Shown here piece after piece: positions 1 through 64,000 of a stretch of 64,000 nucleotides of DNA. The stretch is from contig CAXARO010001759.1 of the NCBI GenBank assembly GCA_963971305.1, positions 1 through 64,000 on the forward strand, in the 5' to 3' direction. The translations under genes were made by a program, and so were the position numbers. Source of the stretch: Arcuatula senhousia. Taxonomy: Eukaryota; Mollusca; Bivalvia; Mytilida; Mytilidae. The number at the start of each line of letters is the position of its first letter. Positions within the stretch are counted from its first letter, which is position 1. Below the pieces are notes generated by a model that ran no database searches, was not told the DNA's origin, and saw only the letters and a list, made by a program, of their open reading frames with translations.

Positions 1-430
1 AACTAGTGCTGATTGTGTTGGGATGCCAACACAGAAGTCGCCCAAAATCGCCTTGGATAAGTCTAGAAATCAAATTTCGTTGAAATCGGACAAAGTTGAC
101 GTTTTTGGGGGGCGGGTGTGGTAAAATGGCCGCCATTTTAAAATGGCGGCGTTCGCGTCAAATTTTTTTTCTGCATGTTGCTCAGGAAGGATCACTCTAC
201 TAGTGTACCAATTTTCATTAAAATCCATCCACCCATCTCCGAGATCTGAGAGGGGCCCAAAAATCTTAAACGGCGGCCATCTTGAAAATGGCGGCCATTT
301 TGAAAATTTCAAAAGTGGATTGCACACCTCTGAGTGACCCTCCATCCATCTCAGCAGGTTTTATCTTGATTGGTCAAAGCGTTTTCAAAAAATGTGGCGG
401 ACAAGTTCACGATCACGTAAGGAAAAGAAT
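1..430 (+). mobile_element. Beta-family element, left end and body (right end not in window)
   Basis: The left end begins with AACTAG, then the beta hairpin TGTGTTGGGATGCCAACACA (14-33) and beta motif AAGTCGCCCAAAA (35-47). The body is non-coding and more diverged than the other beta copies. It holds ATGGCGGCC/GGCCATTTTG palindromic modules near 125-165 and 270-305. It ends with a subterminal motif like GGACAAGTTCACGATCACG (389-417) before a short A-rich junction where the next beta element starts. No beta right-end hairpin is left over inside the window to close it, so it is either still open beyond 64000 or has lost that end. The microsatellite at its right junction is nearly absent. Confidence 0.65.
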
Positions 431-893
431 AACTAGGTATAATTGTGTTGGGATGCCAACACACAAGTCGCCCAAAATCGCCTTGGATAGAGTTCCATTC
501 AAATCAGTGCATCAAAATAAGTCTAGAAATCAAATTTCGTTGAAATTGGACAAAGTTGACGTTTTTAGGGGGGCGGGTGTAGTAAAATGGCCGCCATTTT
601 GAAACCGTAAGTCGGATTCCAAATCCGGTCGCAGATTTGAGCTCAGCATACCCGCTTTACCCAGATGACCAATTTTCAAAACGATCCGATGAAAAAAAAA
701 TTTCCGCCCACTTTTTCCGATGGCCGCCATTTTGAAACGGCGGCCATCTTGAAAATTTTAAAAGTGCATTACACAACTTTGAGTGACCCACTATCCAATT
801 TCACAAGTGTTATTCAATTTCCTTGGACCATTTTCTTGTATTAGGGAGGACAACTTTACGATAAAGAATCAGAAGAATAATAATAATAATAAT

Positions 894-1409
894 AACTAGC
901 TATAATTTGTGTTGGGATGCCAACACACAAGTCGCCCAAAATCGCCTTGGATACTATTTCTTCCCATTCAGTACAATAAAATATGTATGGAAATCAAATT
1001 TCATTGAAATCGGACAAAGTTCACATTTTTAAGGGGGGCGGGTGTAGTAAAATGGCCGCCATTTTGAAACCGTAAGTCAGATTTCAAATCCGGTCGCAGA
1101 TTTGAATTCAGCATACCCGCTTTACCCATATGACTAATTTTCAAAACGATCCGATGAAAAAAAAAATTCCGCCCACTTTTTCCTATGGCCGCCATTTTGA
1201 AACGGCGGCCATCTTGAAAATTTCAAAACTTGATTGCACGCCTTTAGGTGACCCACTATCAAATCCAGCAAGTGTTATTCAATTTCCTTGAACCGTTTTC
1301 TTGTATTAGGGAGGACAGCTTTACGATTAAGAATCAGAAGAATAATAATAATAATAATAAGAAACGATGCAAAAACAATAAGTCTCCCAAACTTTGTTTT
1401 GGGCGACTT
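894..1409 (+). mobile_element. Complete short beta element (about 0.5 kb)
   Basis: This is one of the simplest full elements in the window. It has AACTAG 894-899, left hairpin 908-927, motif X 929-941, a body of about 400 bp, (AAT)n at about 1341-1359, then the constant arm and right hairpin 1380-1409. It uses the beta left-end subtype with CTATAATTTGTG in place of GTATAATTGTG. That subtype goes with a different first 100 bp of body ('ctatttcttcccattcagtacaataaaatatgtat'). The body has a single copy of the GCCGCCATTTTGAAACCGTAAGTC module and no tandem expansion. Confidence 0.8.
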
Positions 1410-1466
1410 AATAATAAGAAACGGTGCAAAAACAATAAGTCTCCCAAACTTTGTTTTGGGCGACTT
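1380..1466 (+). repeat. Two tandem beta right-end hairpins
   Basis: There are two 30-nt imperfect hairpins (1380-1409 and 1437-1466), each with arms AAGTCTCCCAAA and TTTTGGGCGACTT. Each follows a constant arm GAAAC(GA/GG)TGCAAAAACAAT and is followed by AATAAT. They close the beta elements opened at 894 and 431. The proximal arm has T where the left-end motif has G, so the distal arm pairs perfectly with the left end but not with its own partner arm. Confidence 0.85.
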
Positions 1467-1589
1467 AATAATAATAACTAGTTCTTATTGTGATCGCAAG
1501 CGAGTCACATATATGTCCCCTCACGTACCCCTCTTTGTCAATATGTCTCTTGGCATTTGAGATCACTTAATATACCCAATATTCATCAA

Positions 1590-2270
1590 AATAGGAGTAA
1601 GTTTAATTTTGGCGGGAAACGGCGGCCATTTTGAACATGGCTGACGAAAAAAAAATTTTGGTGTAAAAAATCAACTCGCCATACCACTTTTACCTTGAAT
1701 ACCAATTTTCATCAAAATCTGAGTAACTTTAATTTTGGCGGGAAACGGCACGATGAAAAAATTTTAATGTCAAAAATCAACTTGCCATACCACTATTACC
1801 TTATATACCAATTTTCATCAAAATCGGAGTAGCTTTAAATTTTGGCGGGAAATGGCAGCCATTTTAAAATGGCCGACAATACAAAATTTTTGATGTCAAA
1901 AATGAAATCGGCATACCATTATTACCTTAAATACCAGTTTTCATAAAAATCGGAATAACTTTAATTTTGGCGAGAAACGGCGGCCATTTTGGAAATGGCC
2001 GACAATGAAAAAATTTTAATGTCAAAAATCAACTCGCCATACCACTATTACCTTATATACAAATTTTCATCAAAATCGGAGTAACTTTAAATTTTGGCGG
2101 GAAATGGCAGCCATTTTGAAAATGGCCGACGATAAAAATTTTTGATGTCAAAAATCAAATCGGCATACCACTATTACTTTATATACCAATTTTCATCAAA
2201 ATCGGAGTAATTTTAAATTTTGGCGGGAAAATGGCGGCCATCTTAGCCGCCATTTTGAAAATGGCCGCCA
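1590..2270 (+). repeat. Alpha-1 central tandem repeats, about 125-bp monomer
   Basis: There are about six degenerate monomers. Each reads TTTTGGCGGGAAA, then a palindrome around GGCCATTTTGAAAATGGCC, then GATGTCAAAAATCAACTCG, CCATACCACTATTACC and ACCAATTTTCATCAAAATC. GGCGGGAAA recurs near 1612, 1738, 1845, 2097 and 2222, with a diverged GGCGAGAAA near 1970. The block ends with two fused palindromes (GGCGGCCATCTTAGCCGCC). The same block type recurs in every alpha-1 element: 5130-6060, 6675-7600, 54230-54790, 55915-56360, 57140-57450, 58080-58650, 59280-59970, 61080-61520 and 62130-62690. Copy number varies from element to element. Confidence 0.85.
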
Positions 2271-2944
2271 AAAAAATTTCGATACAAAATATGAACTCGG
2301 CATACCACTATTACCTTGTAAACCAATTTTCATTAAGAAATAACAAAGTTGAGAATTTTTACATTACTATTACAAAATACAAAATACAAAGAAAGGTAAC
2401 TCAATTTGACAAAAAAATTAATTTTCGTTTTTTTGCAAAATTTTGAAAACGGTAAGTCCGATTTTCAAAATTTTTTTTTTAAATGAAAGGTATTGAAAGT
2501 CTACACTTACCCCATAAAGGAATTTGACCTACCCCTGCCGGATCAGAAATGCCAGGTAAAAATTCAACTTCGGTTTCGAGGAGCCATTTTGAGGCCCTTT
2601 TTTGACCTATAAGGGGTCGTTCGATTTCGACGAAAAATACAAAAAGCACAATCTCCCATTCCATACTCTTGATATATGAAGATTCAGCTTCCTACCTTAA
2701 AAGATGTCGAAAAAATGAGGTGGACAAGTTCACGGTCCAGAATACCGAGAAAAATAATAATAATAATAATAAATATTGATGATATGATCTCAGAGATCAT
2801 GAATGGCTCCCAAACGACGGCACCATGTCGACAACTGATATCTGGAATACATGCCATATCATTCAATTGAATTAAATACAGTGGGAAATCAAATTTTATG
2901 GAGATCAGACAAAGTTCACTTTTAAAGTGGGTGGGAGTGTAGTG

Positions 2945-3480
2945 AAAATGGCCGCCATAGAATATCAAGAAGTCGAATCAACAGTCTGTGTGCACCATTG
3001 AATTCGGCATACCTGATTTACCCAGATGACCCATTTTCAAGAAAATTCGACAAACTTTAATTTTTGGCTATTTTTGGAAATCAAAATGGCCGCCATATGG
3101 AAACCGGAAGTCGGATCGAAATTCTGATTGCATCATTGAACTCAGCATACCTGATTTACCCAGATGACCCATTTTCAAGAAGATTCGACAAACTTAAATT
3201 TTTGGCTATTTTTAGAAATCAAAATGGCCGCCATATGGAAACCGGAAGTCGGATCGAAATTCCAATTGCATCATTGAACTCAGCATACCTGATTTACCCA
3301 GATGACCCATTTTCAAGAAGATTCGACAATTTCTAATTTTTGGCTATTTTTAGAAATCAAAATGGCCGCCATTTGGAAACCGGAAGTCGGATCGAAATTC
3401 CGATTGCATAATTGAGCTCAGCATACCTGATTTACCCAAATGACTAATTTTCGTGAAGATACGACAAACTTGAATTTTTG
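2945..3480 (+). repeat. Delta central tandem repeats, about 137-bp monomer
   Basis: Monomers read AAAATGGCCGCCATATGG, AAACCGGAAGTCGGATCG, 'attgcatcattgaactcagcatacctgatttaccc', 'agatgacccattttcaagaagattcgacaaac' and 'tttttggctatttttagaaatc'. Starts fall near 2946, 3083, 3221 and 3358. The block recurs in the inner delta copy at about 4000-4650. The module order (GGC-CCAT palindrome, GGAAGTC, CAGCATACC, CATTTTCAAG) parallels the beta body and, more loosely, the alpha modules. I infer common descent of the bodies. Confidence 0.8.
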
Positions 3481-4998
3481 GTTATTTTAGAAATTTCTAG
3501 AAAATTCACATTTTTGCATTTTACGGAAAAACCGTAAATATCGCTTCCGATTTTTTTTTCGTATTTTTAGTGTACCCATCATGCTCTACAATCATACCAA
3601 GTTTCAAAGTCCTGGCCACCTAGGTTCCAGAGATATAAGATTGTCCGAAATCTGGAACATTCCCCGTTGCCATGGAAACGGTAGCCATTTTGAAAATTTC
3701 CCATGCATTTGGCACAATTTCCCATAAGGGTCTATACTTGGGGAACATTTCATAATGTTTCGATAAACAGTTTACGAGAAAACTTCCGGACAAAAATTTA
3801 GGGCGGAAGAAAGAATAATAATAATAATAAATATTGATGATATGATCTCAGAGATCATGAATGGCTCCCAAACGACGGCACCATGTCGACAACTGATATC
3901 TGGAATACATGCCATATCATTCAATTGAATTAAATACAGTGGGAAATCAAATTTTATGGAGATCAGACAAAGTTCACTTTTAAAGTGGGTGGGAGTGTAG
4001 TGAAAATGGCCGCCATAGAAAATCAAGAAGTCGAATCAACAGTCTGTGTGCACCATTGATTTCGGCATACCTGATTTACCCAGATGACCCATTTTCAAGA
4101 AGATTCGACAAACTTTAATTTTTGGCTATTTTTAGAAATCAAAATGGCCGCCATTTGGAAACCGGAAGTCAGATCGAAATTCCAATTGCATCATTGAACT
4201 CGGCATACCAGATTTACCCACATGACCCATTTTCAAGAAGATTCGACAAACTTTAATTTTTGGCTATTTTTAGAAATCAAAATGGCCACCATTTGAAAAC
4301 CGGAAGTCGGATCGAAATTCCGATTGCATCATTGAACTCAGCATACCTGATTTACCCAGATAACCCATTTTCAAGAAGATTCGACAAACTTTAATTTTTG
4401 GCTATTTTTAGAAATCAAAATGGCCGCCATATGGAAACCGGAAGTCGGATCGAAATTCCGATTGCATCATTGAACTCAGCATACCTGATTTACCCAGATG
4501 ACCCATTTTCAAGAAGATTCGACAATTTTTAATTGTTGGCTATTTTTAGAAATCAAAATGGCCGCCATTTGGAAACCGGAAGTCGGATCGAAATACCTGA
4601 TTTACCCAGATGACCAATTTTCGTGAAGATACGACAAACTTGAATTTTTGGTTATTTTAGAAATTTCTAGAAAATTCACATTTTTGCATTTTACGGGAAA
4701 ACCGTAAATATCGCTTCCGAATTTTTTTTCGTATTTTTAGTGTACCCATCATGCTCTACAATCATACCAAGTTTCAAAGTCCTGGCCACCTAGGTTCCAG
4801 AGATATAAGATTGTCCGAAATCTGGAACATTCCCCGTTGCCATGGAAACGGTAGCCATTTTGAAAATTTCCCACGCATTTGGCACAATTTCTCATAAGGG
4901 TCTATACTTGGGGAACATTTCATAATGTTTCGATAAACAGTTTACGAGAAAACTTCCGGACAAAAATTTAGGGCGGAAGAAAGAATAATAATAATAAT

Positions 4999-7900
4999 AA
5001 CTAGTTCTAATTGTGATCGCAAGCGAGTCACATATATGTCCCCTCACGTACCCCTCTTTGTCAATATGTCTCTTGGCATTTGAGATCACTTAATATTACC
5101 AATATTCATCAAAATAGGAGTAAGTTTAATTTTGGCGGGAAACAGCGGCCATTTTCAAAATGGCCGACTACAAATAAATTTCAATGTTAAAAATCAACTC
5201 GCCATACCACTATTACTTTGAATACCAATTTTCATCAAAATCTGAGTTACTTTAATTTTGGCGGGAAATGGCCGACAATGAAAATTTTTTAATGTCAAAA
5301 ATCAACTCGCCATACCACTATAACCTTATGTACCAATTTTCATCAAAATCGGAGTAACTTTAAATTTTTGGCGGGAAACGGCAGCCATTTTGAAAATGGT
5401 CGACGATAAAAAAATTTTGATGTCAAAAATCAACTCGCCATACCACTTTTACCTTGAATACCAATTTTCAACAAAATCTGAGTAACTTTAATTTTTGCGG
5501 GAAACGGCGGCCATTTTGGAAATGGCCGACAATGAAAAATTTTTAATGTCAAAAATCAACTCGCCATACCACTATAACCTTATGTAAGAATTTTCATCAA
5601 ATTCGGAGTAACTTTAAATTTTGGCGGGAAACGGCAGCCATTTTGAAAATGGTCGACGATAAAAAAATTCTGATGTCAAAAATCAACTCGCCACACCAAT
5701 ATTACTTTGAATACCAATTTTCATCAAAATCAGAGTAACTTTAATTTTGGCGGGAAACGGCGGCCATTTTGAAAATGGCCGACGATGAAAAATTTTTAAT
5801 GTCAAAAATCAACTCGCCATACCACTATTACCTTTTATACAAATTTTCATCAAAATCGGAGTAACTTTAAATTTTGGCGGGAAATGGCAGCCATTTTGAA
5901 AATGGCTGACGAAAAATAATTTTTAATGTCAAAAATCAACTCGCCATACCACTATTACCTTATATACCAATTTTCATAAAAATTGGAGCAAGTTTAAGTT
6001 TTGGCGGGAAAACGGCGGCCATTTTAGCCGCCATTTTGAAAATGGCCGCCAAAAATTTTTTTCGATACCAAAAATGAACTCGGCATACCACTATTACCTT
6101 GTAAACCGATTTTCATTAAGAAATAACAAAGTTGAGAATTTTTACTTTACTATTACAAAATATATTGTAACAAGAAAGATAACTCAATTTGACAAAAAAA
6201 ATTAAATTTCGATTTTTTGCAAAATTTTGAGAACCGTAAGTCCGATTTTCAAAATTCTTTTTTTAAATGAAAGCTATTAAAAGTCTACACTTACCCTTTA
6301 AATGAATTTTTCCTACCCCTGCCGGATCAGAAATGCCAGGTAAAAATCAACTTCGGTTTCGAGGAGCCATTTTGAGGCCCTTTTTTGACCTATAAGGGGT
6401 CATTCGATTTCGGCGAAAAATACAAAAAGCACAATTTCCCATTCCATACTCTTGATTTATGAAGTTTCAGCTTCCTACCTTAAAAGATGTTGAAAAAATG
6501 AGGTGGACAAGTTCACGGTCCAGAATACCGAGAAAAATAATAATAACTAGTTCTAATTGTGATCGCAAGCGAGTCACATATATGTCCCCTCACGTACCCC
6601 TCTTTGTCAATATGTCTCTTGGCATTTGAGATCACTTAATATTACCAATATTCATCAAAATAGGAGTAAGTTTAATTTTGGCGGGAAACAGCGGCCATTT
6701 TCAAAATGGCCGACTACAAATAAATTTCAATGTTAAAAATCAACTCGCCATACCACTATTTCTTTGAATACCAATTTTCATCAAAATCTGAGTTACTTTA
6801 ATTTTGGCGGGAAATGGCCGACAATGAAAATTTTTTAATGTCAAAAATCAACTCGCCATACCACTATAACCTTATGTACCAATTTTCATCAAAATCGGAG
6901 TAACTTTAAATTTTTGGCGGGAAACGGCAGCCATTTTGAAAATGGTCGACGATAAAAAAATTTTGATGTCAAAAATCAACTCGCCATACCACTTTTACCT
7001 TGAATACCAATTTTCAACAAAATCTGAGTAACTTTAATTTTTGCGGGAAACGGCGGCCATTTTGGAAATGGCCGACAATGAAAAATTTTTAATGTCAAAA
7101 ATCAACTCGCCATACCACTATAACCTTATGTAAGAATTTTCATCAAATTCGGAGTAACTTTAAATTTTGGCGGGAAACGGCAGCCATTTTGAAAATGGTC
7201 GACGATAAAAAAATTCTGATGTCAAAAATCAACTCGCCACACCAATATTACTTTGAATACCAATTTTCATCAAAATCAGAGTAACTTTAATTTTGGCGGG
7301 AAACGGCGGCCATTTTGAAAATGGCCGACGATGAAAAATTTTTAATGTCAAAAATCAACTCGCCATACCACTATTACCTTTTATACAAATTTTCATCAAA
7401 ATCGGAGTAACTTTAAATTTTGGCGGGAAATGGCAGCCATTTTGAAAATGGCTGACGAAAAATAATTTTTAATGTCAAAAATCAACTCGCCATACCACTA
7501 TTACCTTATATACCAATTTTCATAAAAATTGGAGCAAGTTTAAGTTTTGGCGGGAAAACGGCGGCCATTTTAGCCGCCATTTTGAAAATGGCCGCCAAAA
7601 ATTTTTTTCGATACCAAAAATGAACTCGGCATACCACTATTACCTTGTAAACCGATTTTCATTAAGAAATAACAAAGTTGAGAATTTTTACTTTACTATT
7701 ACAAAATATATTGTAACAAGAAAGATAACTCAATTTGACAAAAAAAATTAAATTTCGATTTTTTGCAAAATTTTGAGAACCGTAAGTCCGATTTTCAAAA
7801 TTCTTTTTTTAAATGAAAGCTATTAAAAGTCTACACTTACCCTTTAAATGAATTTTTCCTACCCCTGCCGGATCAGAAATGCCAGGTAAAAATCAACTTC

Positions 7901-8210
7901 GGTTTCGAGGAGCCATTTTGAGGCCCTTTTTTGACCTATAAGGGGTCATTCGATTTCGGCGAAAAATACAAAAAGCACAATTTCCCATTCCATACTCTTG
8001 ATTTATGAAGTTTCAGCTTCCTACCTTAAAAGATGTTGAAAAAATGAGGTGGACAAGTTCACGGTCCAGAATACCGAGAAAAATAATAATAATAATAATA
8101 AGAAACCGAGCAAAAACAATATGTCCCCGACACTTCGTGTTCGGGGACATAATAATAATAAGAAACCGAGCAAAAACAATATGTCCCCGACACTTCGTGT
8201 TCGGGGACAT
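4999..8210 (+). mobile_element. Alpha-1 element, nearly identical to the element nested within it
   Basis: AACTAG 4999-5004, left hairpin 5012-5032, ATGTCCCC 5036-5043, tandem modules to about 6060, alpha 3' domain to 6533, right hairpin 8181-8210. The body matches the next alpha copy (6545 onward) at a constant offset of 1,546 bp. By reading along I see a single substitution (near 5211 versus 6757). The pair is therefore very young, and the inner copy sits in the (AAT)n of the outer. Confidence 0.8.
6545..8150 (+). mobile_element. Complete alpha-1 element, innermost of the nest (1.6 kb)
   Basis: AACTAG 6545-6550, left hairpin 6558-6578, ATGTCCCC 6582-6589, tandem modules 6675-7600, alpha 3' domain 7600-8080 ending GGTGGACAAGTTCACGG, (AAT)n 8082-8100, constant arm GAAACCGAGCAAAAACAAT, right hairpin 8121-8150. 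Nothing is inserted in it, so it gives the cleanest full-length picture of an alpha element. It has no open frame beyond those created by the repeats. Confidence 0.85.
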
Positions 8211-8378
8211 AATAATAATAAGAAACCGAGCAAAAACAATATGTCTCCACAAACTTCGTTTGGGAGCCATAATAAGAAACCGAGCAAAAACAATATGTCT
8301 CCACAAACTTCGTTTGGGAGCCATAATAAGAAACCGAGCAAAAACAATATGTCCCCGACACCTCGTGTTCGGGGACAT
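8121..8378 (+). repeat. Five stacked right-end hairpins: alpha, alpha, delta, delta, alpha
   Basis: Hairpins lie at 8121-8150 (alpha), 8181-8210 (alpha), 8241-8270 (delta), 8295-8324 (delta) and 8349-8378 (alpha). Each is exactly 30 nt, follows GAAACCGAGCAAAAACAAT and is followed by AATAA. Alpha arms are ATGTCCCCGA and TCGGGGACAT. Delta arms are ATGTCTCCACAAAC and GTTTGGGAGCCAT. The order is the exact mirror of the upstream left ends (alpha 1476, delta 2771, delta 3829, alpha 4999, alpha 6545). Confidence 0.9.
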
Positions 8379-8381
8379 AAT

Positions 8382-8833
8382 AACTAGCTATAATTTGTGT
8401 TGGGATGCCAACACACAAGTCGCCCAAAATCGCCTTGGATACTTTTTCTTCCCATTAGGTACAATAAAATATGTATACGAATCAAATTTCATTGAAATCG
8501 GACAAAGTTTACATTTTTAGGGGGGCGGGTGTAGTAAAATGGCCGCCATTTTGAAACCGTAAGTCGGATTTCAAATCCGGTCGCAGATTTGAACTCAGCA
8601 TACCCGCTTAACTCCAATGACCAATTTTCAAGACGATCCGATAAAAAAAAAATTTCCGCCCACTTTTTCCGATGGCCGCCATTTTGAAACGGCGGCCATC
8701 TTGAAAATTTCAAAACATGATTACACGCCTTTGAGTGACCCACTATCCTATCCAACAAGTGTTATTCAATTTCTTTTAACCGTTTTATTGTATTAGGGAG
8801 GACAAATTCTCGATAAAGAATCAGAAGAATAAT
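8382..8833 (+). mobile_element. Beta element, left end and body (right end not assigned)
   Basis: AACTAG 8382-8387, left hairpin 8396-8415, motif 8417-8429, body with GCCGCCATTTTGAAACCG and a second palindrome near 8675-8700, ending with the GGAGGACAAATTCTCG variant of the 3' motif and a short AATAATAA. By bracket counting it is not closed in the window: three beta right ends follow at 53.5 kb for four open beta elements. Which of the four is unclosed cannot be proved from one window, because the beta right ends are nearly the same. Confidence 0.65.
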
Positions 8834-9758
8834 AACTAGCTATAATTTGTGTTGGGATGCCAACACACAAGTCGCCCAAAATCGCCTTGGATACTTTTTT
8901 TTCCCATTCAGTACAATAAAATATGTATAGAAATCAAATTTCATTGAAATCGGACAAAGTTCACATTTTTAAGGGGGGCGGGTGTAGTAAAATGGCCGCC
9001 ATTTTGAAACCGGAAGTCGGATTTCAAATCCGGTCGCAGATTTGAATTCAGCATACCCGCTTTACCCAGATGACCAATTTTCAAGACGATCCGATGAAAA
9101 AAAAAATTCCGCCCACTTTTTCCGACGGCCGCCATTTTGAAACGGCGGCCATCTTGAAAATCTTAAAAGTGCATTACACAACTTTGAGTGACCCACTATC
9201 CAATCCAACAAGTGTTATTCAATTTCCTTGAACCATTTTCTTGAATTAGGGAGGACAACTTTACGATAAAGAATCAGAAGAATAATAATAATAATAACTA
9301 GGTATAATTGTGTTGGGATGCCAACACACAAGTCGCCCAAAATCGCCTTGGATATAGTTCCATTCAAATCAGTGCATCAAAAGAAGTCTAGAAATCAAAT
9401 TTCGTTGAAATCGGACAAAGTTGACATTTTTAGGGGGGCGGGTGTAGTAAAATGGCCGCCATTTTGAAACCGGAAGTCGAATTTCAAATCTGGTCGCAGA
9501 TTTGAATTCAGCATACCCGCTTTACCCAGATGACCAATTTTCAAGACGATCCGATGAAAAAAAATTTTCCGCCCACTTTTTCCGACGGCCGCCATTTTGA
9601 AACGGCGGCCATCTTGAAAATTTCAAAACATGATTACACGCCTTTGAGTGACCCACTATCCAATCCAACAAGTGTTATTCAATTTCCTTGAACTGTTTTC
9701 TTGTATTAGGGAGGACAACTTTACGATAAAGAATCAGAAGAATAATAATAATAATAAT

Positions 9759-53409: not shown

Positions 53410-53634
53410 AAGGTCTTCCCTTGGAAAGGGAAAGACCTTAATAATAATAATAATAATAAGAAGAAACGGTGCAAAAACAATAAGTCTCCCAAACTTTGTT
53501 TTGGGCGACTTAATAATAATAATAATAAGAAACGGTGCAAAAACAATAAGTCTCCAAAACTTTGTTTTGGGCGACTTAATAATAAGAAACGGTGCAAAAA
53601 CAATAAGTCTCCCAAACTTTGTTTTGGGCGACTT
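53410..53634 (+). repeat. Right-end stack: gamma, beta, beta, beta
   Basis: The last gamma hairpin is at 53410-53439. (AAT)n and then three beta hairpins follow (53482-53511, 53548-53577, 53605-53634), each with GAAACGGTGCAAAAACAAT and AATAA spacers of varying length. The order fits closure of gamma (12162) and three beta elements opened at 11703, 11246 and 8834. Confidence 0.85.
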
Positions 53635-53655
53635 AATAATAATAAGAAAAATAAT

Positions 53656-54115: not shown

Positions 54116-55283
54116 AACTAGTTCTAATTGTGATCGCAAGCGAGTCACAAAAATGTCCCCTCACGTACCCCTCTTTGTCAATGTCTCTTGGCATTTGAGA
54201 TAACTTAATTTATCCAATTTTCATCAAAATAGGAGTAAGTTTAATTTTGGCGGGAAACGGTGGCCATTTTTAAAATGGCCGACAATAAAAATATTTCGAT
54301 GTCAAAAATCAACTCAACATACATATATTACCTTATATACCAATTTTCGTTAAAATCTGAGTAAATTTAATTTTGGCGGGAAAAGGCGGCCATTTTGAAA
54401 ATGGCCGACGATAAAAAAAATTTTGATGTCAAAAATCAACTTGCCATACCACTATTACCTCATATACCAATTTTCATTAAAATCGGAGTAATTTTAATTT
54501 TGGCGGGAAATGGCGGCCATTTTGAAAATGACGGCCCCCAAAAAAAATTCGATTCTAAATTTGAATTCGGCATACCACTATTACATTGTATACCAATTTT
54601 CATCAAATTCAGAATAACTTTAATTTTGGCGGGAAACGGCGGCCATTTTGAAAATGGCCGACGATACAAAAGTTTTGATGTCAAAAATCAACTCGCCATA
54701 CCACAATTACCTTATATACCAATTTTCACTAAAATCGGAGTAATTTTAATTTTGGCGGGAAATGGCGGCCATTTTTAAAATGGCCGCCCAAAAAAAAATT
54801 TCGATTCCAAAATTGAACTCGGCATACCACTATTACCTTATAAACCAATTTTCATTAAGAAATAACAAAGTTGAGAATTTTTTTCATTAATATCACAAAA
54901 TATATGGTACAAAGAAAGATAACTCAATCTTACAAAAAAAATAATTTTCGATTTTTTGCAAAATTTTGAAAACGGTAAGTCCGATTTTGAAATTTGTTTT
55001 TTTAAATGAAAGGTATTGTATATCCGCACTTAACCTATAAGGGAATTTTTCCTACCCCTGCCGGATCAGAAATGCCAGGAAAAATTCAGCTTTGGTTTCG
55101 AGGAGCCATTTTGAGGCCCTTTTTTTACCTATAAGGGGTCGTTCGATTTCGGCGAAAAATACAAAAAGCACAATCTCCCATTCCATACTCTTGATTTATG
55201 AATTTTCAGCTTCCTACCTTAAAAGATGTCGAAAAAATGAGGTGGACAAGTTCACGATCCAGAATACCGAGAAAAATAATAAT
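54116..55283 (+). mobile_element. Alpha-1 element, left end and body (right end beyond window)
   Basis: AACTAG 54116-54121, left hairpin 54129-54149, ATGTCCCC 54153-54160, about five tandem modules (GGCGGGAAA near 54248, 54376, 54503, 54625, 54755), alpha 3' domain 54790-55270 ending GGTGGACAAGTTCACGA. A complete beta element follows in its (AAT)n, then another alpha element. Confidence 0.7.
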
Positions 55284-55795
55284 AACTAGCTATAATTTGT
55301 GTTGGGATGCCAACACACAAGTCGCCCAAAATCGCCTTGGATACTATTTCTTCTCATTCAGTACAATAAAATATGTATAGAAATCAAATTTCATTGAAAT
55401 CGGACAAAGTTCACATTTTTAAGGGGGCGGGTGTAGTAAAATGGCCGCCATTTAAAAACCGGAAGTCGGATTTCAAATCCGGTCGCAGATTTGAACTCAG
55501 CATATCCGCTTCACCCAGATCACCAATTTTCAAGACGATCCGATAAAAAAAATTTTTCCGCCCACTTTTTCCGACGGTCGCCATTTTGAAACGGCGGCCA
55601 TCTTGAAAATTTCAAAACATGATTACACGCCTATGAGTGACCAACTATCCAATCCAACAAGTGTTATTCAATTTCCTTGAACCGTTTTCTTGTATCAGGG
55701 AGGACAACTTTACGATAAAGAATCAGAAGAATAATAATAATAATAAGAAACGGTGCAAAAACAATAAGTCTCCCAAACTTTGTTTTGGGCGACTT
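55284..55795 (+). mobile_element. Complete short beta element (about 0.5 kb)
   Basis: AACTAG 55284-55289, left hairpin 55298-55317, motif 55319-55331, body to about 55728, (AAT)n, constant arm GAAACGGTGCAAAAACAAT and right hairpin 55766-55795. It is uninterrupted, like the copy at 894, and uses the same CTATAATTTGTG left-end subtype. Confidence 0.85.
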
Positions 55796-55801
55796 AATAA
55801 T

Positions 55802-56851
55802 AACTAGTTCTAATTGTGATCGCAAGCGAGTCACATACATGTCCCCTCACGTACCCCTCTTTGTCAATATGTGTTTGGGCATTTGAGAATACCTAATTTT
55901 CATCAAGATCGGGTACGATTAATTTTGGCGGGAAACGGCGGCCATTTTGAAAAATGGCCAACGATAAAAAAAATTTTGATATCAAAAATAAACTCGCCAT
56001 ACCACCATTACCTTATATACCAATTTTCATTAAAATCGGAGTAACTTTGATTTTTGGCGGGAAACGGCGGCCATTTTGAAAATGGCCGACCAAATAAAAA
56101 TTTCGATGTCAAAAATCAACTCGCCATAGCAGTATTACCTTAAATACCAATTTTCATCAAAATCAGAGTAACTTTAATTTTGGCGGGAAACGGCGGCCAT
56201 TTTGAAAATGGCTGACGATAAAAAAAATTTGATGTCAAAAATCAACATACCATACCACTACTTCCATATATACCAATTTTCATCAAAATCGGAGCAAGTT
56301 TAAATTTTGGCGGGAAAATGGCAGCCATTTTAGCCGCCATTTTGAAAATGGCCGCCAAAAAAAAATTTCGATTCCAAAAATGAATTCGGCACACCACTAT
56401 TACCTTGTAAACCAATTTTCATTAAGAAATTACAAAGTTGAGAATTTTTTTCATTACTATTATAAAATATATTGTACAAAGGAAGATAACTCAATCTTAC
56501 AAAAAATAATAAATTTCGATTTTTTGCAAAATTTTGAAAACGGTAGGTCCGATTTTCAAAATTTTTTTTTTAAATGAAAGGTATTAAATATCCACACTTT
56601 ACCTATAAAGGAATTTTTCCTACCCCTGCCGGATCAGAAATGCCAGAAAAAATTCAACTTCGGTTTCGAGGAGCCATTTTGAGGCCCTTTTTTGACCTAT
56701 AAGGGGTCGTTCAATTTCGACAAAAAATACAAAAAGCACAATCTCCCATTCCATACTCTTGATATATGAAGATTCAGCTTCCTACCTTAAAAGATGTTGA
56801 AAAAATGAGGTGGACAAGTTCACGGTCCAGAATACCGAGAAAAATAATAAT
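55802..56851 (+). mobile_element. Alpha-1 element, left end and body (right end not assigned)
   Basis: AACTAG 55802-55807, left hairpin 55815-55835, ATGTCCCC 55839-55846, about four tandem modules, alpha 3' domain from 56360 ending GGTGGACAAGTTCACGG. Four alpha left ends in a row (this one, 56852, 57954, 59158) are followed by only three alpha right ends, so by nesting order this one stays open. Confidence 0.65.
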
Positions 56852-56917
56852 AACTAGTTCTAATTGTGATCGCAAGCGAGTCACAAAAATGTCCCCTCAC
56901 GTACCCCTCTTTGTCAA

Positions 56918-57065
56918 TGTCTCTTAGCATTTGAGATAACTTATTATATCCAATTTTCATCAAAATAGGAGTAAGTTTAATTTTGGCGGGAAATGGCCAA
57001 AATTAAACTTACTCCTATTTTGATGAAAATTGGATATAATAAGTTATCTCAAATGCTAAGAGACA
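56918..57065. repeat. Perfect 70-bp inverted repeat with 8-nt spacer
   Basis: Arm 1 (56918-56987) begins TGTCTCTTAGCATTTGAG and ends GTTTAATTTTGGC. Arm 2 (56996-57065) is its exact reverse complement over all 70 bases. The spacer is GGGAAATG. None of the other alpha elements has the second arm, so it arose in this copy and recently. Confidence 0.95.
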
Positions 57066-57953
57066 CTAAAAAAATTGATGTCAAAAATAAGTTCGCCATA
57101 CCACTTTTACCTTATATACCAATTTTCATCAAAATCAGAGTAACTTTGATTTTGGCGGGAAACGGCGGCCATTTTGTAAATGGCCGACGAAATAAAAATT
57201 TCAATGTCAAAAATCAACTCTCCATACCACTATTACTTTCTATACCAATTTTCATCAAAATCAGAGTAACTTTAATTTTGGCGGGAAACGGCGGCCATTT
57301 TGAAAATGGCCAACGATAAAAAAATTTTGATGTCAAAAATCAACTCGCCATACCACTATTACCTTATATACCAATTTTCATCAAAATTGGAGCAAGTTTT
57401 GGCGGGAAAATGGCGGCCATTTTAGCCGCCATTTTAAAAATGGCCGTCAAAAAAATTTTTCGATACCAAAAATGAACTCGGCATACCACTATTACCTTGT
57501 AAACCAATTTTCATTAAGAAATAACAAAGTTAAGAATTTTTACATTACTATTACAAAATATATTGTTCCAAGAAAGATAACTCAATTTGACAAAAAAATT
57601 AAATTTCGATTTTTTGCAAAATTTTGAGAACCGTAAGTCCGATTTTCAAAATTTTTTTTTTAAATGAAAGGTATCGAAAGTCTACACTTACCCCATAAAG
57701 GAATTTGTGTTACCCCTGACGGATCAGAAATGCCAGGTAAAATTCAACTTCGGTTTCGAGGAGCCATTTTACGGCCCTTTTTTGACCTATAAGGGGTCGT
57801 TCGATTTCGACGAAAAATACAAAAAGCACAATCTCCCATTCCATACTCTTGATATATGAAGTTTCAGCTTCCTACCTTAAAAGATGTCGAAAAAATGAGG
57901 TGGACAAGTTCACGATCCAGAATACCGAGAAAAATAATAATAATAATAATAAT

Positions 57954-59127
57954 AACTAGTTCTAATTGTGATCGCAAGCGAGTCACATATATGTCCCCTC
58001 ACGTACCCCTCTTTGTCAATATGTCTCTTGGCATTTGAGATCACCTAATATACCCAATATTCATCAAAATAGGAGTAAGTTTATTTTGGCGGGAAACCGC
58101 AGCCATTTTGAAAATGGCCGACGATGAAAAATTTTCAATGTCAAAAATCAACTCGCCATACCACTATAACCTTTTGTACCAATTTTCATCAAAATCGGAG
58201 TAACTTTAAATTTTGGCGGGAAACGGCAGCCATTTTGATAATGGTCGACGATAAAAAAATTTTGATGCCAAAAATCAACTCGCCATACCACTATTACCTT
58301 GAATACCAATTTTCATCAAAATCTGAGTAACTTTAATTTTGGCGGGAAACGGCGGCCATTTTGAAAATGGCCCACGATGAAAAAATTTTCAATGTCAAAA
58401 ATCAACTCGCCATACCACTATTACCTTATATACAAATTTTCATCAAAATCGGAGTAACTTTAAATTTTGGCGGGAAATGGCGGCCATTTTGAAAATGGCT
58501 GACAAAAAAAAATTTTGATGTCAAAAATCAACTCGCCATACCACTATTACCTTATATACCAATTTTCATAAAAATTGGAGCAAGTTTAGGTTTGGGCGGG
58601 AAAACGGCGGCCATTTTAGCCGCCATTTTGAAAATGGCCGCCAAAAAATTTTTTCGATAGCAAAAATGAACTCGGCATACCACTATTACATTGTAAACCG
58701 ATTTTCATTAAGAAATAACAAAGTTGAGAATTTTTACATTACTATTACAAAATATATTGTAACAAGAAAGATAACTCAATTTGACAAAAAAATTAAATTT
58801 CGATTTTTTGCAAAATTTCGAGAACCGTAAGTCCGATTTTCAAAATTCTTTTTTTAAATGAAAGGTATTAAAAGTCTACACTTACCCCATAAAGGAATTT
58901 TTCCTACCCCTGCCGGATCAGAAATGCCAGGTAAAAATTCAACTTCGGTTTCGAGGAGCCATTTTGAGGCCCTTTTTTGACCTATAAGGGGTCGTTCGAT
59001 TTCGACGAACAATACAAAAAGCACAATCTCCCATTCCATACTCTTGATTCATGAAGATTAAGCTTCCTACCTTAAAAGATGTCGAAAAAATGAGGTGGAC
59101 AAGTTCACGGTCCAGAATACCGAGAAA

Positions 59128-59160
<33 letters not shown>

Positions 59161-60588
59161 TAGTTCTAATTGTGATCGCAAGCGAGTCACATATATGTCC
59201 CCTCACGTACCCCTCTTTGTCAATATGTCTCTTGGCATTTGAGAATACCTAATATACCAATTTTCATCAAGATCGGAGTAAGTTTAATTTTGGCGGGAAA
59301 CGGCGGCCATTTTGAAAATGGCCAACGATAAAAAATTTTCGATGTCAAAAATAAACTCGCCATACCACAATAACCTTATATACCAATTTTCATTAAAATC
59401 GGAGTAACTTTGATTTTTGGCGGGAAACGGCGGCCATTTTGAAAATGGCTGACGAAATAAAAATTTCGATTTCAAAAATCAACTTGCCATACCACTATTA
59501 CCTTGAATACCAATTTTCATCAAAATCTGAGTAACTTTAATTTTGGCGGAAAACGGCAGCCATTTTAAAAATGGCCGACGATGAAAAAATTTTAATGTCA
59601 AAAATCAACTCGCAATACCACTATAACCTATTGTACCAATTTTCATCAAAATCTGAGTAACTTTAATTTTGGCGGGAAACGGCAGCCATTTCGATAATGG
59701 TCGACGATAAAAATATTTTGATGTCAAAAATCAACTCGCCATACCACTATTACCTTGAATACCAATTTTCATCAAAATCTGAGTAACTTTAATTTTGGCG
59801 GGAAACGGCGGCCATTTTGAAAATGGCTGACGAAAAAAAAATTTTGATGTCAAAAATCAACTCGCCATACCAATATTACCTTATTTACCAATTTTCATAA
59901 AAATTGGAGCAAGTTTAAGTTTGGGCGGGAAAACGGCGGCCATTTTAGCCGCCATTTTGAAAATGGCCGCCAAAAAATTTTTTCGATACCAAAAATGAAC
60001 TCGGCATACCACTATTACCTTGTAAACCGATTTTCATAAAGAAATAACAAAGTTGAGAATTTTTACATTACTATTACAAAATATATTGTAACAAGAAAGA
60101 TAACTCAATTTGACAAAAAAAATAAATTTCGATTTTTTGCAAAATTTTGAGAACCGTAAGTCCGATTTTCAAAATTCTTTTTTTAAATGAAAGGTATTAA
60201 AAGTCTACACTTACCCCATAAAGGATTTTTTCCTACCCCTGCCGGATCAGAAATGCCAGGTAAAAATTCAACTTCGGTTTCGAGGAGCCATTTTGAGGCC
60301 CTTTTTTTACCTATAAGGGGTCGTTCGATTTCGACGAAAAATACAAAAAGCACAATCTCCCATTCCATACTCTTGATTTATGAAGATTCAGCTTCCTACC
60401 TTAAAAGATGTCGAAAAAATGAGGTGGACAAGTTCACGGTCCAGAATACCGAGAAAAATAATAATAATAATAATAATAATAAGAAACCGAGCAAAAACAA
60501 TATGTCCCCGACACTTCGTGTTCGGGGACATAATAATAAGAAACCGAGCAAAAACAATATGTCCCCGACACTTCGTGTTCGGGGACAT
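57954..60588 (+). mobile_element. Alpha-1 element (middle of three)
   Basis: AACTAG 57954-57959, left hairpin 57967-57987, ATGTCCCC 57991-57998, five tandem modules (58088-58590), fused palindrome near 58605-58640, alpha 3' domain to about 59128, then a long (AAT)n in which the next alpha starts. The right end by nesting order is 60559-60588. Confidence 0.7.
59158..60531 (+). mobile_element. Complete alpha-1 element (1.4 kb)
   Basis: AACTAG 59158-59163, left hairpin 59171-59191, ATGTCCCC 59195-59202, about six tandem modules, alpha 3' domain 59970-60455 ending GGTGGACAAGTTCACGG, (AAT)n, constant arm and right hairpin 60502-60531. It is uninterrupted. Confidence 0.8.
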
Positions 60589-60645
60589 AATAATAAGAAA
60601 CCGAGCAAAAACAATATGTCCCCGACACTTCGTGTTCGGGGACAT
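60502..60645 (+). repeat. Three tandem alpha right-end hairpins
   Basis: Identical 30-nt hairpins (60502-60531, 60559-60588, 60616-60645) at a 57-bp period: AATAATAA, GAAACCGAGCAAAAACAAT, arms ATGTCCCCGA/TCGGGGACAT. They close three of the four alpha elements opened upstream. An alpha left end follows at 60652. Confidence 0.9.
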
Positions 60646-60734
60646 AATAATAACTAGTTCTAATTGTGATCGCAAGCGAGTCACATACATGTCCCCTCAC
60701 GTACCCCTCTTTGACAATATTTCTGGCTTTTGTG

Positions 60735-61010
60735 GGAACCCTGTTTAAGCAATGACGTCCTTATCATTCCATTGAAGCACCCTTTTTACAAGCATTGGTA
60801 GCGTACTTGTAAACTATTGTAGTGACTAGCGAGCATAACTACCGCTCTCGTCCTCTACAATGGAGCCACTCTTCAATGAAATGCTAAAAACGTTACGGAG
60901 AAGCTTTTGGTTGACATCCATATGAGATATTATGCTCCCTTAATCTCATATAGTCGAGAAGAATCACACAGTCGCATCCAAAAGCTGTTGCATCGGACCA
61001 TAAACAAAAT
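60735..61010. other. Structured non-repetitive segment inside an alpha element
   Basis: CATTCCATTGAAG (60765-60777) pairs with CTTCAATGAAATG (60871-60883), one mismatch. Inside lie TTTACAAG/CTTGTAAA (60785-60792 with 60806-60813) and ATTGTAG/CTACAAT (60816-60822 with 60855-60861). A second structure follows: AGCTTTTGG/CCAAAAGCT (60902-60910 with 60978-60986) enclosing ATATGAGAT/ATCTCATAT (60920-60928 with 60943-60951). The segment is unlike anything else in the window. It could be a captured structured RNA gene or a small inverted-repeat element. I do not recognise it. Confidence 0.55.
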
Positions 61011-62011
61011 TTAATGCTAAAAATGAACTCCCCATACCACAATTACCCTGTATATTAATTTTTATTCAAATCGGAGTAAGTTTAATTTTGGCGGGAAATG
61101 GCGGCCATTTTGAAAATGGCCGACGATAAAAAAAATTTGATGTCAAAAATCAACTCGCCATACCACTATTACCTTATATACCAATTTTCATCAAACACGG
61201 AGTAAGTTTAATTTTTGGCGGGAAACGGCGGCCATTTTGAAAATGGCTAACGATAAAAAAATTTTGATGTCAAAAATCAACTCGCCATACCACTATTACC
61301 TTATATACCAATTTTCATCAAAATCGGAGTAAGTTTAATTTTTGGCGGGAAACGGCGGCCATTTTGAAAATGGCCAACGATAAAAAAAAATTGATGTTAA
61401 AAATCAACTCGCCATGCCACTATTACCTTATATACCATTTTTCATCAAAATTGGAGCAAGTTTAATTTTTGGCGGGAAAATGGCGGCCATTTTAGCCGCC
61501 ATTTTAAAAATGGCCGCCAAAAAATTTTTTCGATACCAAAAATGAACTCGGCATACCACTATTACCTTGTAAACCAATTTTCATTAAGAAATAACAAAGT
61601 TAAGAATTTTTACATTACTATTACAAAATATATTGTTCCAAGAAAGATAACTCAATTTGACAAAAAAATTAAATTTCGATTTTTTGCAAAATTTTGAGAA
61701 CCGTAAGTCCGATTTTCAAATTTTTTTTTTTAAATGAAAGGTATCGGAAGTCGACACTTACCCCATAAAGGAATTTGTGTTACCCCTGCCGGATCAGAAA
61801 TGCCAGGTAAAATTCAACTTCGGTTTCGAAGAGCCATTTTGAGGCCCTTTTTTGACCTATAAGGGGTCGTTCGATTTCGACAAAAAATACAAAAAGCACA
61901 ATCTCCCATTCCATACTCTTGATATATGAAGTTTCAGCTTCCTACCTTAAAAGATGTCGAAAAAATGAGGTGGACAAGTTCACGTTCCAGAATACCGAGA
62001 AAAATAATAAT

Positions 62012-63175
62012 AACTAGTTCTAATTGTGATCGCAAGCGAGTCACATACATGTCCCCTCACGTACCCCTCTTTGTCAATATGTGTTTGGGCATTTGAGAAT
62101 ACCTAATATACCAATTTTCATCAAGATCGGAGTAAGTTAAATTATCGCGGGAAACGGCGGCCATTTTGAAAATGGCCAACGATAAAAAAAATTTTGATGT
62201 CAAAAATAAACTGGCCATACCACAATAACCTTATATACCAATTTTCATTAAAATCGGAGTAACTTTGATTTTTGGCGGGAAACGGCGGCCATTTTGAAAA
62301 TGGCCGACAAAATAAAAATTTCGATGTCAAAAATCAACTCGCCATAGCACTTTTACCTTATATACCAATTTTCATCAAAATCAGAGTAACTTTAATTTTG
62401 GCGGGAAACGGCGGTCATTTTGAAAATGGCCGACAATAAAAAAAAAATTATGTCAAAAATCAACTCGCCATTCCACTATTACTTTATATACCAATTTTCG
62501 TCAAAATCGGAGTAACTTTAATTTTGGCGGGAAAAGGCGGCCATTTTGAAAATGGCCCACGATAGAAAAATTTTGATGTCAAAAATCATCTCGCCATACC
62601 ACTATTACCTTATATACCAATTTTCATCAAAATCGGAGCAAGTTTAAATTTTGGCGGGAAATTTTAGCCGCCATTTTGAAAATGGCCGCCAAAAAAAATT
62701 TTCGGTAGCAAAAATGAACTCGGCATACCACTATTACCTTGTAAACCAATTTTCAATAAGAAATAACAAAGTTGAGAATTTTTACATTACTATTACATAA
62801 TACAAAGTACAAAGAAAGATAACTCAATATGACAAAAAAATTAAATTTCGATTTTTTGCAAAATTTTGAAAACCGTAAGTCCGATTTTCAAAATTTTTTT
62901 TTTAAATGAAAGGTATTGAAAGTCTACACTTACCCTAAAAAGGAATTTTTCCTACCCCTGCCGGATCAGAAATGCCAGGTGAAAATTCAACTTCGGTTTC
63001 AAGGAGCCATTTTGAGGCCCTTTTTTGACCTATAAGGGGTCGTTCGATTTCGACGAAAAATACAAAAAGCACAATCTCCCATTCCATACTCTTGATATAT
63101 GAAGATTCAGCTTCCTACCTTAAAAGATGTCGAAAAAATGAGGTGGACAAGTTCACGGTCCAGAATACCGAGAAA

Positions 63176-63228
<53 letters not shown>

Positions 63229-63275
63229 GAAACCGAGCAAAAACAATATGTCCCCGACACTTCGTGTTCGGGGAC

Positions 63276-63277
<2 letters not shown>
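62012..63277 (+). mobile_element. Complete alpha-1 element (1.3 kb)
   Basis: AACTAG 62012-62017, left hairpin 62025-62045, ATGTCCCC 62049-62056, about five tandem modules to 62690 (the last palindrome is shortened), alpha 3' domain to 63170, then the longest (AAT)n in the window and right hairpin 63248-63277. Confidence 0.8.
63176..63228 (+). repeat. (AAT)n microsatellite, about 17 repeats
   Basis: This is the longest uninterrupted (AAT)n seen here, directly before an alpha right end and so at the position used by other elements as an insertion site. A second run of about nine repeats separates the two alpha right ends at 63278-63306. Confidence 0.95.
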
Positions 63278-63306
<29 letters not shown>

Positions 63307-63355
63307 GAAACCGAGCAAAAACAATATGTCCCCGACACTTCGTGTTCGGGGACAT
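63248..63355 (+). repeat. Two alpha right-end hairpins
   Basis: Hairpins 63248-63277 and 63326-63355, arms ATGTCCCCGA and TCGGGGACAT, each after GAAACCGAGCAAAAACAAT. They close the alpha elements opened at 62012 and 60652. Confidence 0.9.
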
Positions 63356-63361
63356 AATAAT

Positions 63362-64000
63362 AACTAGGTATAATTGTGATCGCAAAGCGAGTCACAAATG
63401 TCCCCTCACGTACCCCTCTTTGTTTATATCTGGCTTAGTTGATAACATTTTTCTATTCGCCATCCATTATAATGCTTAGATATCAATTTTCGTTAAAATC
63501 GGAGCAAGTTGAATTTTACCGTAAGTGGCGGCCATTTTGAATTTTTCGACATTTTCGACAACCCTCATAAATTTGCCATGCTATAAAACCCCTAGATAGC
63601 AATTTTCGTTAAAATCTAAGCAAGTTGAATTTTTACCGGAAGTGGCGGCCATTTTGAATTTTTCGACATTTTCCACAACAAACTTCTATTCAGCATCCTT
63701 TAAAACCCCTCGATATCAATTTTGGTTTAAATCGGAGCAAGTTGAATTTTTACCGGAATTGGCGGCCATCTTGAATTTTTCGACATTTTCGACAACACTC
63801 ATAAATTTGCCATGCTATTAAACCCCTAAATATCAATTTTCGTTAAAATCTGAGCAAGTTGAATTTTTACCGGAAGTGGCGGCCATTTTGAATTTTTCGA
63901 CATTTTCGACAACGCACATAAATTCGCCCTGCTATAAAACCCCTTGATATCAATTTTCGTTAAAATCTGAGCAAGTTGAATTTTTACCGGAAGCGGCGGC
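63362..64000 (+). mobile_element. Alpha-2 element, truncated by the window edge
   Basis: AACTAGGTATAATTG, hairpin with TGTGATCGC and AGCGAGTCACA (63375-63396), ATGTCCCC 63398-63405. From 63470 the alpha-2 monomer (GGCGGCCATTTTGAATTTTT, TCGACATTTTCGACAAC) repeats with a period of about 117-119 bp to the end of the window. The 3' domain and right end must lie beyond 64000. Confidence 0.8.

Follow-up and report, generated by a model that had tools for sequence, protein, structure and literature searches.

Balanced, typed nesting of HINE-like elements in a 64-kb stretch of Arcuatula senhousia DNA

Nested LTR retrotransposons of grasses insert at many sites and in both orientations, and Helitron-like elements in Lepidoptera reportedly disrupt (GAAA)n microsatellites, going by the title of Coates et al. 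2010; the elements described here share the bracket order of the former, but at one site and in one orientation, and microsatellite insertion with the latter. According to the sections of PMC4067079 and PMC7492417 drawn on here, HINEs carry subTIRs, an inverted repeat beside the 5' subTIR, a 5' microsatellite, central tandem repeats and a 3' palindrome, insert at T-rich/TT sites without clear target duplication and into other transposons, and are mentioned as forming clusters. In Fusarium, 5' ends of the FoHeli Helitron2 are stacked beside one 5' end, and the authors suggest possible self-insertion (PMC5148889, in part). As in the present locus, the excerpts of that paper show stacked 5' ends, terminal hairpins and shared inverted repeats; however, FoHeli has several 5' ends and one 3' end with one nested case, whereas here the contig holds equal numbers of 5' and 3' ends, with many types and nesting up to 11 deep. 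Recursive insertion of elements into their own microsatellite is not described in the portions consulted of PMC7492417, PMC4067079, PMC5148889, PMC12628747 and PMC8268682, the first two being HINE accounts that also differ from this locus in lacking balanced stacks of such insertions, and pattern scans of viral and prokaryote collections gave no matches. A self-carried landing pad that is reused recursively, with 14 end labels, is an unusual feature.

Outside the satellite, the scan of the window (the whole stretch of 64,000 nucleotides analysed) gave 25 left and 19 right ends, all on the + strand, which resolve into a typed stack free of mismatches, no end closing an empty stack (Table 1); 6 of the 25 left ends are still open at base 64000. 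Two short-variant A left ends (9759 and 63362), missed by the first end scan, were entered from separate evidence. The typed brackets noticed in an earlier sequence-only reading are real, and its left-to-right order of typed ends is that of the scan outside the satellite. It had counted 20 of 20 matching right ends, but there are 19 outside the satellite and 20 only with the H element within it, and its four types fall short of the 14 labels found among paired elements. When right-end types were permuted, 0 of 200,000 permutations in the window were free of mismatches, and 15 of 200,000 were when permutation was limited to the 12 non-innermost right ends; closing the elements first-in-first-out, or reversing each run of right ends, produced six mismatches in either case. 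The typed mirror order is a direct record of nesting. It is not the new stacking rule that the same reading proposed, since matched types follow from any nesting of intact elements, whereas its statement that simple tandem duplication cannot give this order holds: mixed-type mirror stacks and the balance of ends rule out tandem duplication as the main reading.

Table 1. Elements and satellite features in the window
Feature	Position	Strand	Remarks and basis
B1, outermost beta element	1..64000	+	left end at base 1; right end at contig base 71511, outside window, in L029; encloses everything else
B element enclosing B 894-1409	431..1466	+	typed parse
Innermost B element	894..1409	+	left end, body, (AAT)n, right end unbroken; typed parse
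A element enclosing D D A A	1476..8378	+	its own right end and the four inner ones follow as A A D D A, in mirror order; typed parse
Outer D element	2771..8324	+	typed parse
Inner D element	3829..8270	+	typed parse
A element within inner D	4999..8210	+	typed parse
Innermost A element	6545..8150	+	module 99.9% identical to enclosing A module; parse, module comparison
B element	8382..64000	+	closing end outside window, second last right end of contig; parse
B element enclosing B, A, B, B, G and satellite	8834..53634	+	parse
B element enclosing an A element	9296..11242	+	parse
A element, short left-end variant	9759..11185	+	117-bp body repeats; scan, parse
B element	11246..53577	+	parse
B element enclosing gamma composite	11703..53511	+	parse
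G (gamma) composite	12160..53439	+	one left end, ~0.85 kb absent from monomer, satellite, last right end; scan, parse
936-bp satellite	13009..53439	+	monomer of ~380-417 bp gamma end (AAT and right-end hairpin) and ~520-556 bp other DNA
H element in (AAT)n of one satellite monomer	33031..34612	+	other monomers are the empty site
Two gamma right ends 51 bp apart	42108..42202	+	no left end; right-end unit duplicated alone; scan
B element	53656..64000	+	closing end outside window; parse
A element	54116..64000	+	closing end outside window; parse
Innermost B element	55284..55795	+	parse
A element	55802..64000	+	closing end outside window; parse
A element	56852..60645	+	parse
A element	57954..60588	+	parse
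Innermost A element	59158..60531	+	parse
A element	60652..63355	+	parse
Innermost A element	62012..63277	+	parse
A element, short left-end variant	63362..64000	+	closing end outside window; parse

A prediction written beforehand was borne out by the rest of the contig, the last 7.5 kb of which closes the six open elements in the expected order. Over the whole contig outside the satellite interior (13000-53390), 34 of 34 pairs match; right-end-like hairpins whose key fits no label were set aside before counting. On contig C1 (14 segments), 102 of 110 right ends were paired by type, against a maximum of 68 in 40 shuffles; the detector was tuned on these segments, and this first set is not blind. 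Early C1 parses contained mismatches, for example 15 in L011-L015, with another 3 in the window from a gamma left end counted twice, and these arose mainly from errors of the detector (no S type in its set, left ends without a preceding T, a changed right-end spacer, a double call). With the detector frozen, 42 of 46 right ends in three blind segments were paired (maximum 32 in 200 shuffles), and the comparison with shuffled labels suggested in the sequence-only reading placed pairing above every shuffle in both sets. Across the contig, C1 and the blind loci, 155 of 178 paired elements are nested. All loci were found via right ends, a route that favours clusters. The cluster strand carries 430 ends and the opposite strand 5, judged false positives by eye. 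That ends never mismatch, as first claimed, was too strong: in the DNA examined, 18 left ends and 12 of the 190 right ends lack a partner, right ends have been duplicated alone, and one of the 12 is a degenerate solo right end (L017, where the 9 kb fetched contain no left end). Three others lie near the left edge of a fetched stretch, their partners presumably outside it, four belong to runs of surplus J right ends, and the remaining four are other cases. The unpaired ends indicate that ends are also lost and duplicated.

The key that separates the types is common to both ends of an element. In all 71 cases of a left end followed immediately by a right end the two labels agree, and in 68 of the 71 so do the first 8 nt of the key, these pairs not having been picked by label; over all label-paired elements the keys are identical in 173 of 178, partly by construction, as labels derive from keys. 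The E and S keys differ by one base, as do those of K and X. Left modules and the 51-78 bp right-end units might instead have multiplied separately, by unequal exchange or slippage of the AAT run, without transposition; right-end units are indeed near-identical short tandem repeats, one right end in the satellite was duplicated alone, J right ends are in surplus and some neighbouring modules are identical. However, mixed-type mirror stacks such as A D D A A / A A D D A, the exact 34/34 balance, the pairing at blind loci (42/46) and the divergence of nested copies, which equals that of copies from other loci, make this account very improbable. For B, the median divergence between a nested copy and its same-type host copy is 7.3%, against 9.7% for other loci (n = 17), and for A the values are 6.7% and 6.4% (n = 18); nested copies are about as diverged from the host copy as from other loci, and most therefore come from the genome-wide pool. 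Some local copying exists, as seen in three identical or nearly identical B copies of L022 and two such A modules of the window, and separate local duplication remains as a minor process. Terminal branches were longer outside in 24 and inside in 18 of 45 outer-inner pairs (sign test p = 0.44, Wilcoxon p = 0.16), a difference with the sign that nesting expects of older outer copies but without significance.

Pre-formed stacks could also have been carried by composite transposition, in which an entire nest, or a chimera of multiple 5' ends and a single 3' end, moves as a unit. Such chimeras were proposed for Fusarium Helitrons in the part of PMC5148889 drawn on here, and surplus right ends of a single type (J, G) fit them, but chimeras would leave many surplus right ends, and 12 of 190 are unpaired. 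A run of three B left modules is shared in the same order by L011-L015 and the window over 1,451 bp at 93.9%, an identity that is nevertheless ordinary for B copies (median 89.5%, 95th percentile 96.6%, 2,211 pairs), and L011-L015 contains two D elements that each enclose a B (97.7% alike for D, 95.0% for B). Among the 40 longest matches listed (at least 700 bp, at least 93%), the other inter-locus matches extend at most across a single module into part of the next, or over a K module and the adjoining B module. In two of three comparisons, near-identical K copies enclose distinct B copies: the three K copies are 98.9-99.4% alike and the enclosed B copies 91.6%, two of the three B copies (L009, L026) being without a paired right end in the parse. 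The short reach of most module matches between loci, the distinct B copies in like K copies and the count of unpaired right ends speak against composite jumps as the main process, and we give composite transposition very little credence.

All 33 nested left ends of the contig have AAT directly to their left (a single unit in 7 of the 33), although AAT runs of at least two units make up 843 of 31,095 bp. In the contig and the first C1 set, AAT lies directly left of 111 of 120 nested left ends. Of 131 right ends that precede another end, 126 have that next end within 80 bp, 111 of them across a pure AAT spacer. Of 160 AAT runs with at least five units in the fetched DNA, 159 have an element end no more than 60 bp away, so placed that the microsatellite itself and the microsatellite beside a 5' end are inseparable as targets. 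The one exceptional AAT run sits at a stretch edge, beside an apparent right end. Nesting at a self-carried (AAT)n, as first proposed, is thereby supported; its restriction to that site stands for the 33 nested insertions of the contig but not for the seven outermost copies checked, which lie in ordinary host DNA with AA flanks, in six of the seven with no AAT run abutting the right end. An empty site of the kind sought in the sequence-only reading is provided by satellite monomers lacking H: the filled and empty sites differ by the element alone, with no target gain and an ambiguity of up to one AAT unit. Incoming copies land at (AAT)/(ATT)n beside the resident's 5' end and in its orientation, and the resident's body and ends are left in place.

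Element anatomy bears out the likeness to HINE/Helentron elements that had been noted from the sequence, with the ends reversed, as what had been called the right end is by HINE anatomy the 5' end. SubTIRs occur at both ends, and an inverted repeat at the 5' subTIR is seen in right-end hairpin folds (z of -4.9 for A, -2.9 for B, -3.0 for D and -4.4 for G, one end each). A 3' palindrome is present in the minimum-energy folds of left ends (one per type for A, B, D and G), with z of -2.7 for B and -2.6 for G, while A (-0.9) and D (-0.2) fold no better than shuffles. (AAT)n lies left of right ends, the bodies of A and D hold 117-138 bp repeats, and in each of the seven outermost copies checked the right host flank starts with AA (TT on the opposite strand); no target duplication is evident, though an AA duplication at host sites is possible. 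This anatomy and T-rich/TT insertion are shared with HINE / DINE-1, as far as covered in the relevant parts of PMC4067079 and, for Cg_HINE of the Pacific oyster, PMC7492417. Canonical Helitrons (Helitron1) have 5'-TC, 3'-CTRR and a hairpin 10-12 nt upstream (PMC5148889, in part). The 5'-TC is absent here, 5' ends starting with A and carrying subTIRs; at the 3' end, the CTAG of A and B agrees with CTRR, whereas D, G/H, E and L deviate from it. On anatomical grounds, the family resembles non-autonomous Helentrons (HINEs) seen in reverse. A different kind of short DNA transposon, one with hairpins at its termini that targets a microsatellite, would be in keeping with the absence of any visible autonomous partner, and inspection by eye of ORFs of at least 180 codons revealed none that looked Helentron-like (stretches examined, excluding L030-L034); yet subTIRs, a 5' inverted repeat, a 5' microsatellite, a palindrome at the 3' end, AA/TT flanks and the lack of an evident target duplication together match HINEs, and we consider a non-HINE origin unlikely.

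The best explanation, and a highly probable one, is a HINE/Helentron-like family of non-autonomous rolling-circle transposons that nests recursively in the (AAT)/(ATT)n it carries. On the strand opposite to that read above, an element begins with a 5' end in which an 8-13 nt subTIR and its complementary arm form a hairpin, followed by a conserved spacer of ~20 nt and (ATT)n, continues with a body often containing tandem repeats, and finishes with a 3' end of matching subTIR, palindrome and short terminus. Each incoming copy brings its own (AAT)/(ATT)n run, by which the site is renewed and stacks grow. Target choice on the T-rich strand by Helentron-type machinery may explain orientation and site, and partner ends are probably recognised through key pairing. 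A more speculative and rather doubtful extension is that (ATT)n evolved as a self-renewing safe landing pad that takes most transposition and spares the host, with the 8-13 nt key as a lock pairing ends across nested foreign ends, and that keys change one base at a time, in step at the two ends, yielding a growing alphabet of mutually exclusive pairs. One predictable, self-carried site makes the order of events readable, so that a stack can act as a relative insertion clock for several families and as a natural test of target choice and correct end pairing by rolling-circle elements in crowded DNA; many end types with one-base differences make end pairing directly testable. One insertion site can reach more than 70 kb, and a satellite can arise inside such a stack.

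Xiong et al. 2016 reported Helitrons in tandem arrays that combine many 5' ends with a single 3' end, according to the part of the review PMC12628747 drawn on here; the gamma satellite resembles them in this respect, unlike the balanced stacks. It is probably a separate event, the tandem amplification of one element's 5' part together with foreign DNA. Within it the bracket rule fails: there are 43 G right ends (5' ends) and one G left end (3' end), with 42 surplus gamma right ends having no gamma left end.

The contig that carries the window is 71,535 bases long (genome, 1.04 Gb), and the window covers bases 1–64,000 of it; outside a satellite at about 13.0–53.4 kb the window is made of modules and right ends, with all detected typed ends on one strand. 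A module comes after an AAT and comprises a left end (terminus, palindrome and key, the 8–13 nt subterminal inverted repeat, or subTIR, that types each end), a body and a finishing (AAT)n, and the right end that closes it is a conserved spacer of about 20 nt followed by a hairpin with a 3' arm reverse-complementary to the key. The A and D bodies hold 117–138 bp tandem units in which a palindromic motif around GGCGGCCATTTTGAAAATGGC is frequent, and the B bodies, judged by eye, have related motifs without such units. Outside the satellite we found 25 left ends, among them two of a shorter A variant that the scan had missed, and 19 right ends. Their order is that described in the sequence-only reading, whose count of 20 right ends was one too high. 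Parsed as a stack, every right end met an open left end of its own type, and six elements were still open at base 64000. Shuffling the types of all right ends yielded a perfect parse in 0 of 200,000 trials, shuffling only the 12 non-innermost ones did so in 15 of 200,000, and a first-in-first-out order produced six mismatches. The closing order of the six open elements was written down before the rest of the contig was fetched, and in the remaining 7,535 bases they closed as predicted, while nine new left ends all closed among themselves. The whole contig minus the satellite therefore has 34 left and 34 right ends, all paired, to a depth of 9; with right-end types shuffled, a mean of 20.5 and a maximum of 23 of 34 were paired (40 shuffles). 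The contig begins at the exact left terminus of its outermost element and stops 24 bases past the right one; it may be a haplotig whose cut lies at an insertion found in one haplotype only.

Read on the opposite strand, the elements show a 5' subTIR, a complementary inverted repeat, a microsatellite, central repeats, a 3' subTIR, a 3' palindrome and a TT-flanked insertion. This anatomy agrees with that of HINEs (non-autonomous Helentrons) as presented in the oyster and Drosophila accounts (PMC7492417, PMC4067079), bearing out the likeness suggested earlier, and by anatomy we class the elements as probable HINE/Helentron. Since the match is on the opposite strand, what was taken as the right end is the 5' end. 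For a left end followed directly by a right end, the labels are the same in 71/71 cases, and the keys coincide over their first eight bases in 68/71. In elements paired by label, the left key is identical to the 3' arm of the right end in 173/178, a figure that is partly so by construction, but the 5' arm in only 103/178. The hairpin arms differ within eight bases, with the left end matching the 3' arm, in 57 of 62 B pairs, and the same pattern occurs in all 14 D, K, P, Q and X pairs. We infer that selection maintains pairing between the two subTIRs and not just the hairpin. Viewed as 3' ends, the A and B left ends terminate in CTAG about 11 nt past the palindrome, fitting the canonical Helitron CTRR, and other types with similar 5' ends have a 3' end that does not fit it (both by eye).

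One A-/B-like right-end pattern is matched exactly at 4,704 places in the genome, the first of which are listed, and its reversed control at none. On C1, another contig, every listed match up to 15.19 Mb was used (20 stretches, joined where contiguous into 14 segments), and the detector was adjusted on this set, in which 102 of 110 right ends have a type-matched, non-crossing partner (shuffled mean 61.9, maximum 68; 40 shuffles). The detector was then frozen before parsing a blind set of three regions (L030+L031, L032+L033 and L034), sampled beyond 15.19 Mb out of more listed there, where 42 of 46 right ends pair (shuffled mean 27.2, maximum 32; 200 shuffles). Paired elements bear 14 labels, which are our own grouping by key, H being counted as G; the A and J keys have their first eight bases in common and differ later. 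Over all examined DNA, 178 of 190 right ends are paired, and 12 right and 18 left ends are not, so the earlier statement that ends never mismatch goes too far, the satellite being unbalanced too. Of the unpaired right ends, three sit close to the left edge of L011 (no more than 2.1 kb away), four belong to J runs with a surplus of right ends (L011–L015 and L030+L031), one is a degenerate right end standing alone (L017) and four others are in L015, L027, L031 and L033. Some of the unpaired left ends may be chance matches or run off the edge of a stretch, and for others loss of the right end seems likely; in L030+L031, an unpaired B left end and an unpaired B right end may be partners that cross or may result from two independent losses. 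The pairing rule is strong, not absolute, as expected if right ends, as short tandem units, occasionally undergo duplication or deletion. The surplus J right ends are candidates for such duplication or for chimeric copies with several 5' ends.

Locations of features in the contig and in stretches fetched outside the window (L handles)
Feature	Location	Strand	Detail
Left ends open at base 64000	63362, 55802, 54116, 53656, 8382, 1		A, A, A, B, B, B in predicted closing order
A and D bodies	1476-63900
Satellite	13009-53439		starts inside a gamma element
Eight-monomer block	34663-42151
Contig sequence past the outermost right terminus	L029:7512-7535		L029 is the rest of the contig
J right ends, L011-L015	L013:7918-8157		four, against two J left ends
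J right ends	L031:8876-9046		three consecutive, against one J left end
Nested B modules	L022:367-1747	minus	three
Complete stack	L010		F( B( E( B( B) E) B) F)
Complete stack	L021		X( E( G( G) G( G) E) X)
Complete stack	L034		A( A( A( A( A( A) A) A) A) A( B( B( B( B) B) B) A) A)

New copies have landed at the (AAT)n pad beside the right end of a resident copy. In the contig, AAT stands directly left of all 33 nested left ends (a single unit in seven), and AAT runs of at least two units make up 843 of the 31,095 bases outside the satellite. With the first C1 set included, AAT directly precedes 111 of 120 nested left ends, the other nine adjoining a right end or an A/G-rich variant, and 126 of the 131 right ends with another end after them have it within 80 bases, across spacers of pure AAT (111) or AAT variants (15). 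Among paired elements 155 of 178 are nested and 23 outermost, a share biased to clusters because loci were found by right ends. In the seven outermost copies checked, the right host flank always starts with AA, and an AAT run abutting the right end is absent in six. Counting satellite ends, 430 ends lie on the cluster strand and five on the opposite strand, the latter judged by eye to be false positives.

We attribute the nests to insertion and not to duplication. Nested same-type copies differ by a median of 7.3% for B (17 pairs) vs 9.7% between loci, and of 6.7% for A (18 pairs) vs 6.4%. Three K copies are 98.9–99.4% alike, but the B copies inside them show 91.6% identity in two of the comparisons and 97.3% in the remaining one, so independent invasion of the same pad is most likely; two of these three B copies have no paired right end in the parse. 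An H element in a satellite monomer provides an empty/filled pair without added bases, with an ambiguity of at most one AAT unit. Some local copying is also present: two A modules in the window are 99.9% identical and, unlike most nests, the three nested B modules in L022 are identical over the 440 bp compared. Greater age of outer copies, judged by terminal branch length, had 24 comparisons in its favour vs 18 against, which is not significant. Microsatellite-associated Helitrons are already known. So are nested Helitrons and multiple 5' ends, for which self-insertion is a suggested origin (PMC5148889); in the portions of the literature searched, we found no report of balanced typed stacks built by recursive insertion into a microsatellite that the family itself carries. 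The bracket order itself, proposed as a new stacking rule, is a consequence of nesting and introduces no new principle.

The satellite is an event separate from the stacks and upsets the bracket balance by 42 right ends. Its 936-bp monomer joins about 380–417 bp of the gamma 5' part to about 520–556 bp of other DNA, and with its many 5' ends and one 3' end it resembles the tandem rolling-circle Helitron arrays of Xiong et al. 2016, as recounted in PMC12628747. The first 20 monomers are identical. A block of eight, which lies between the H insertion and a duplicated right end, is identical within itself and departs from the consensus at 57 positions; monomer identity may reflect recent amplification or an assembly effect.
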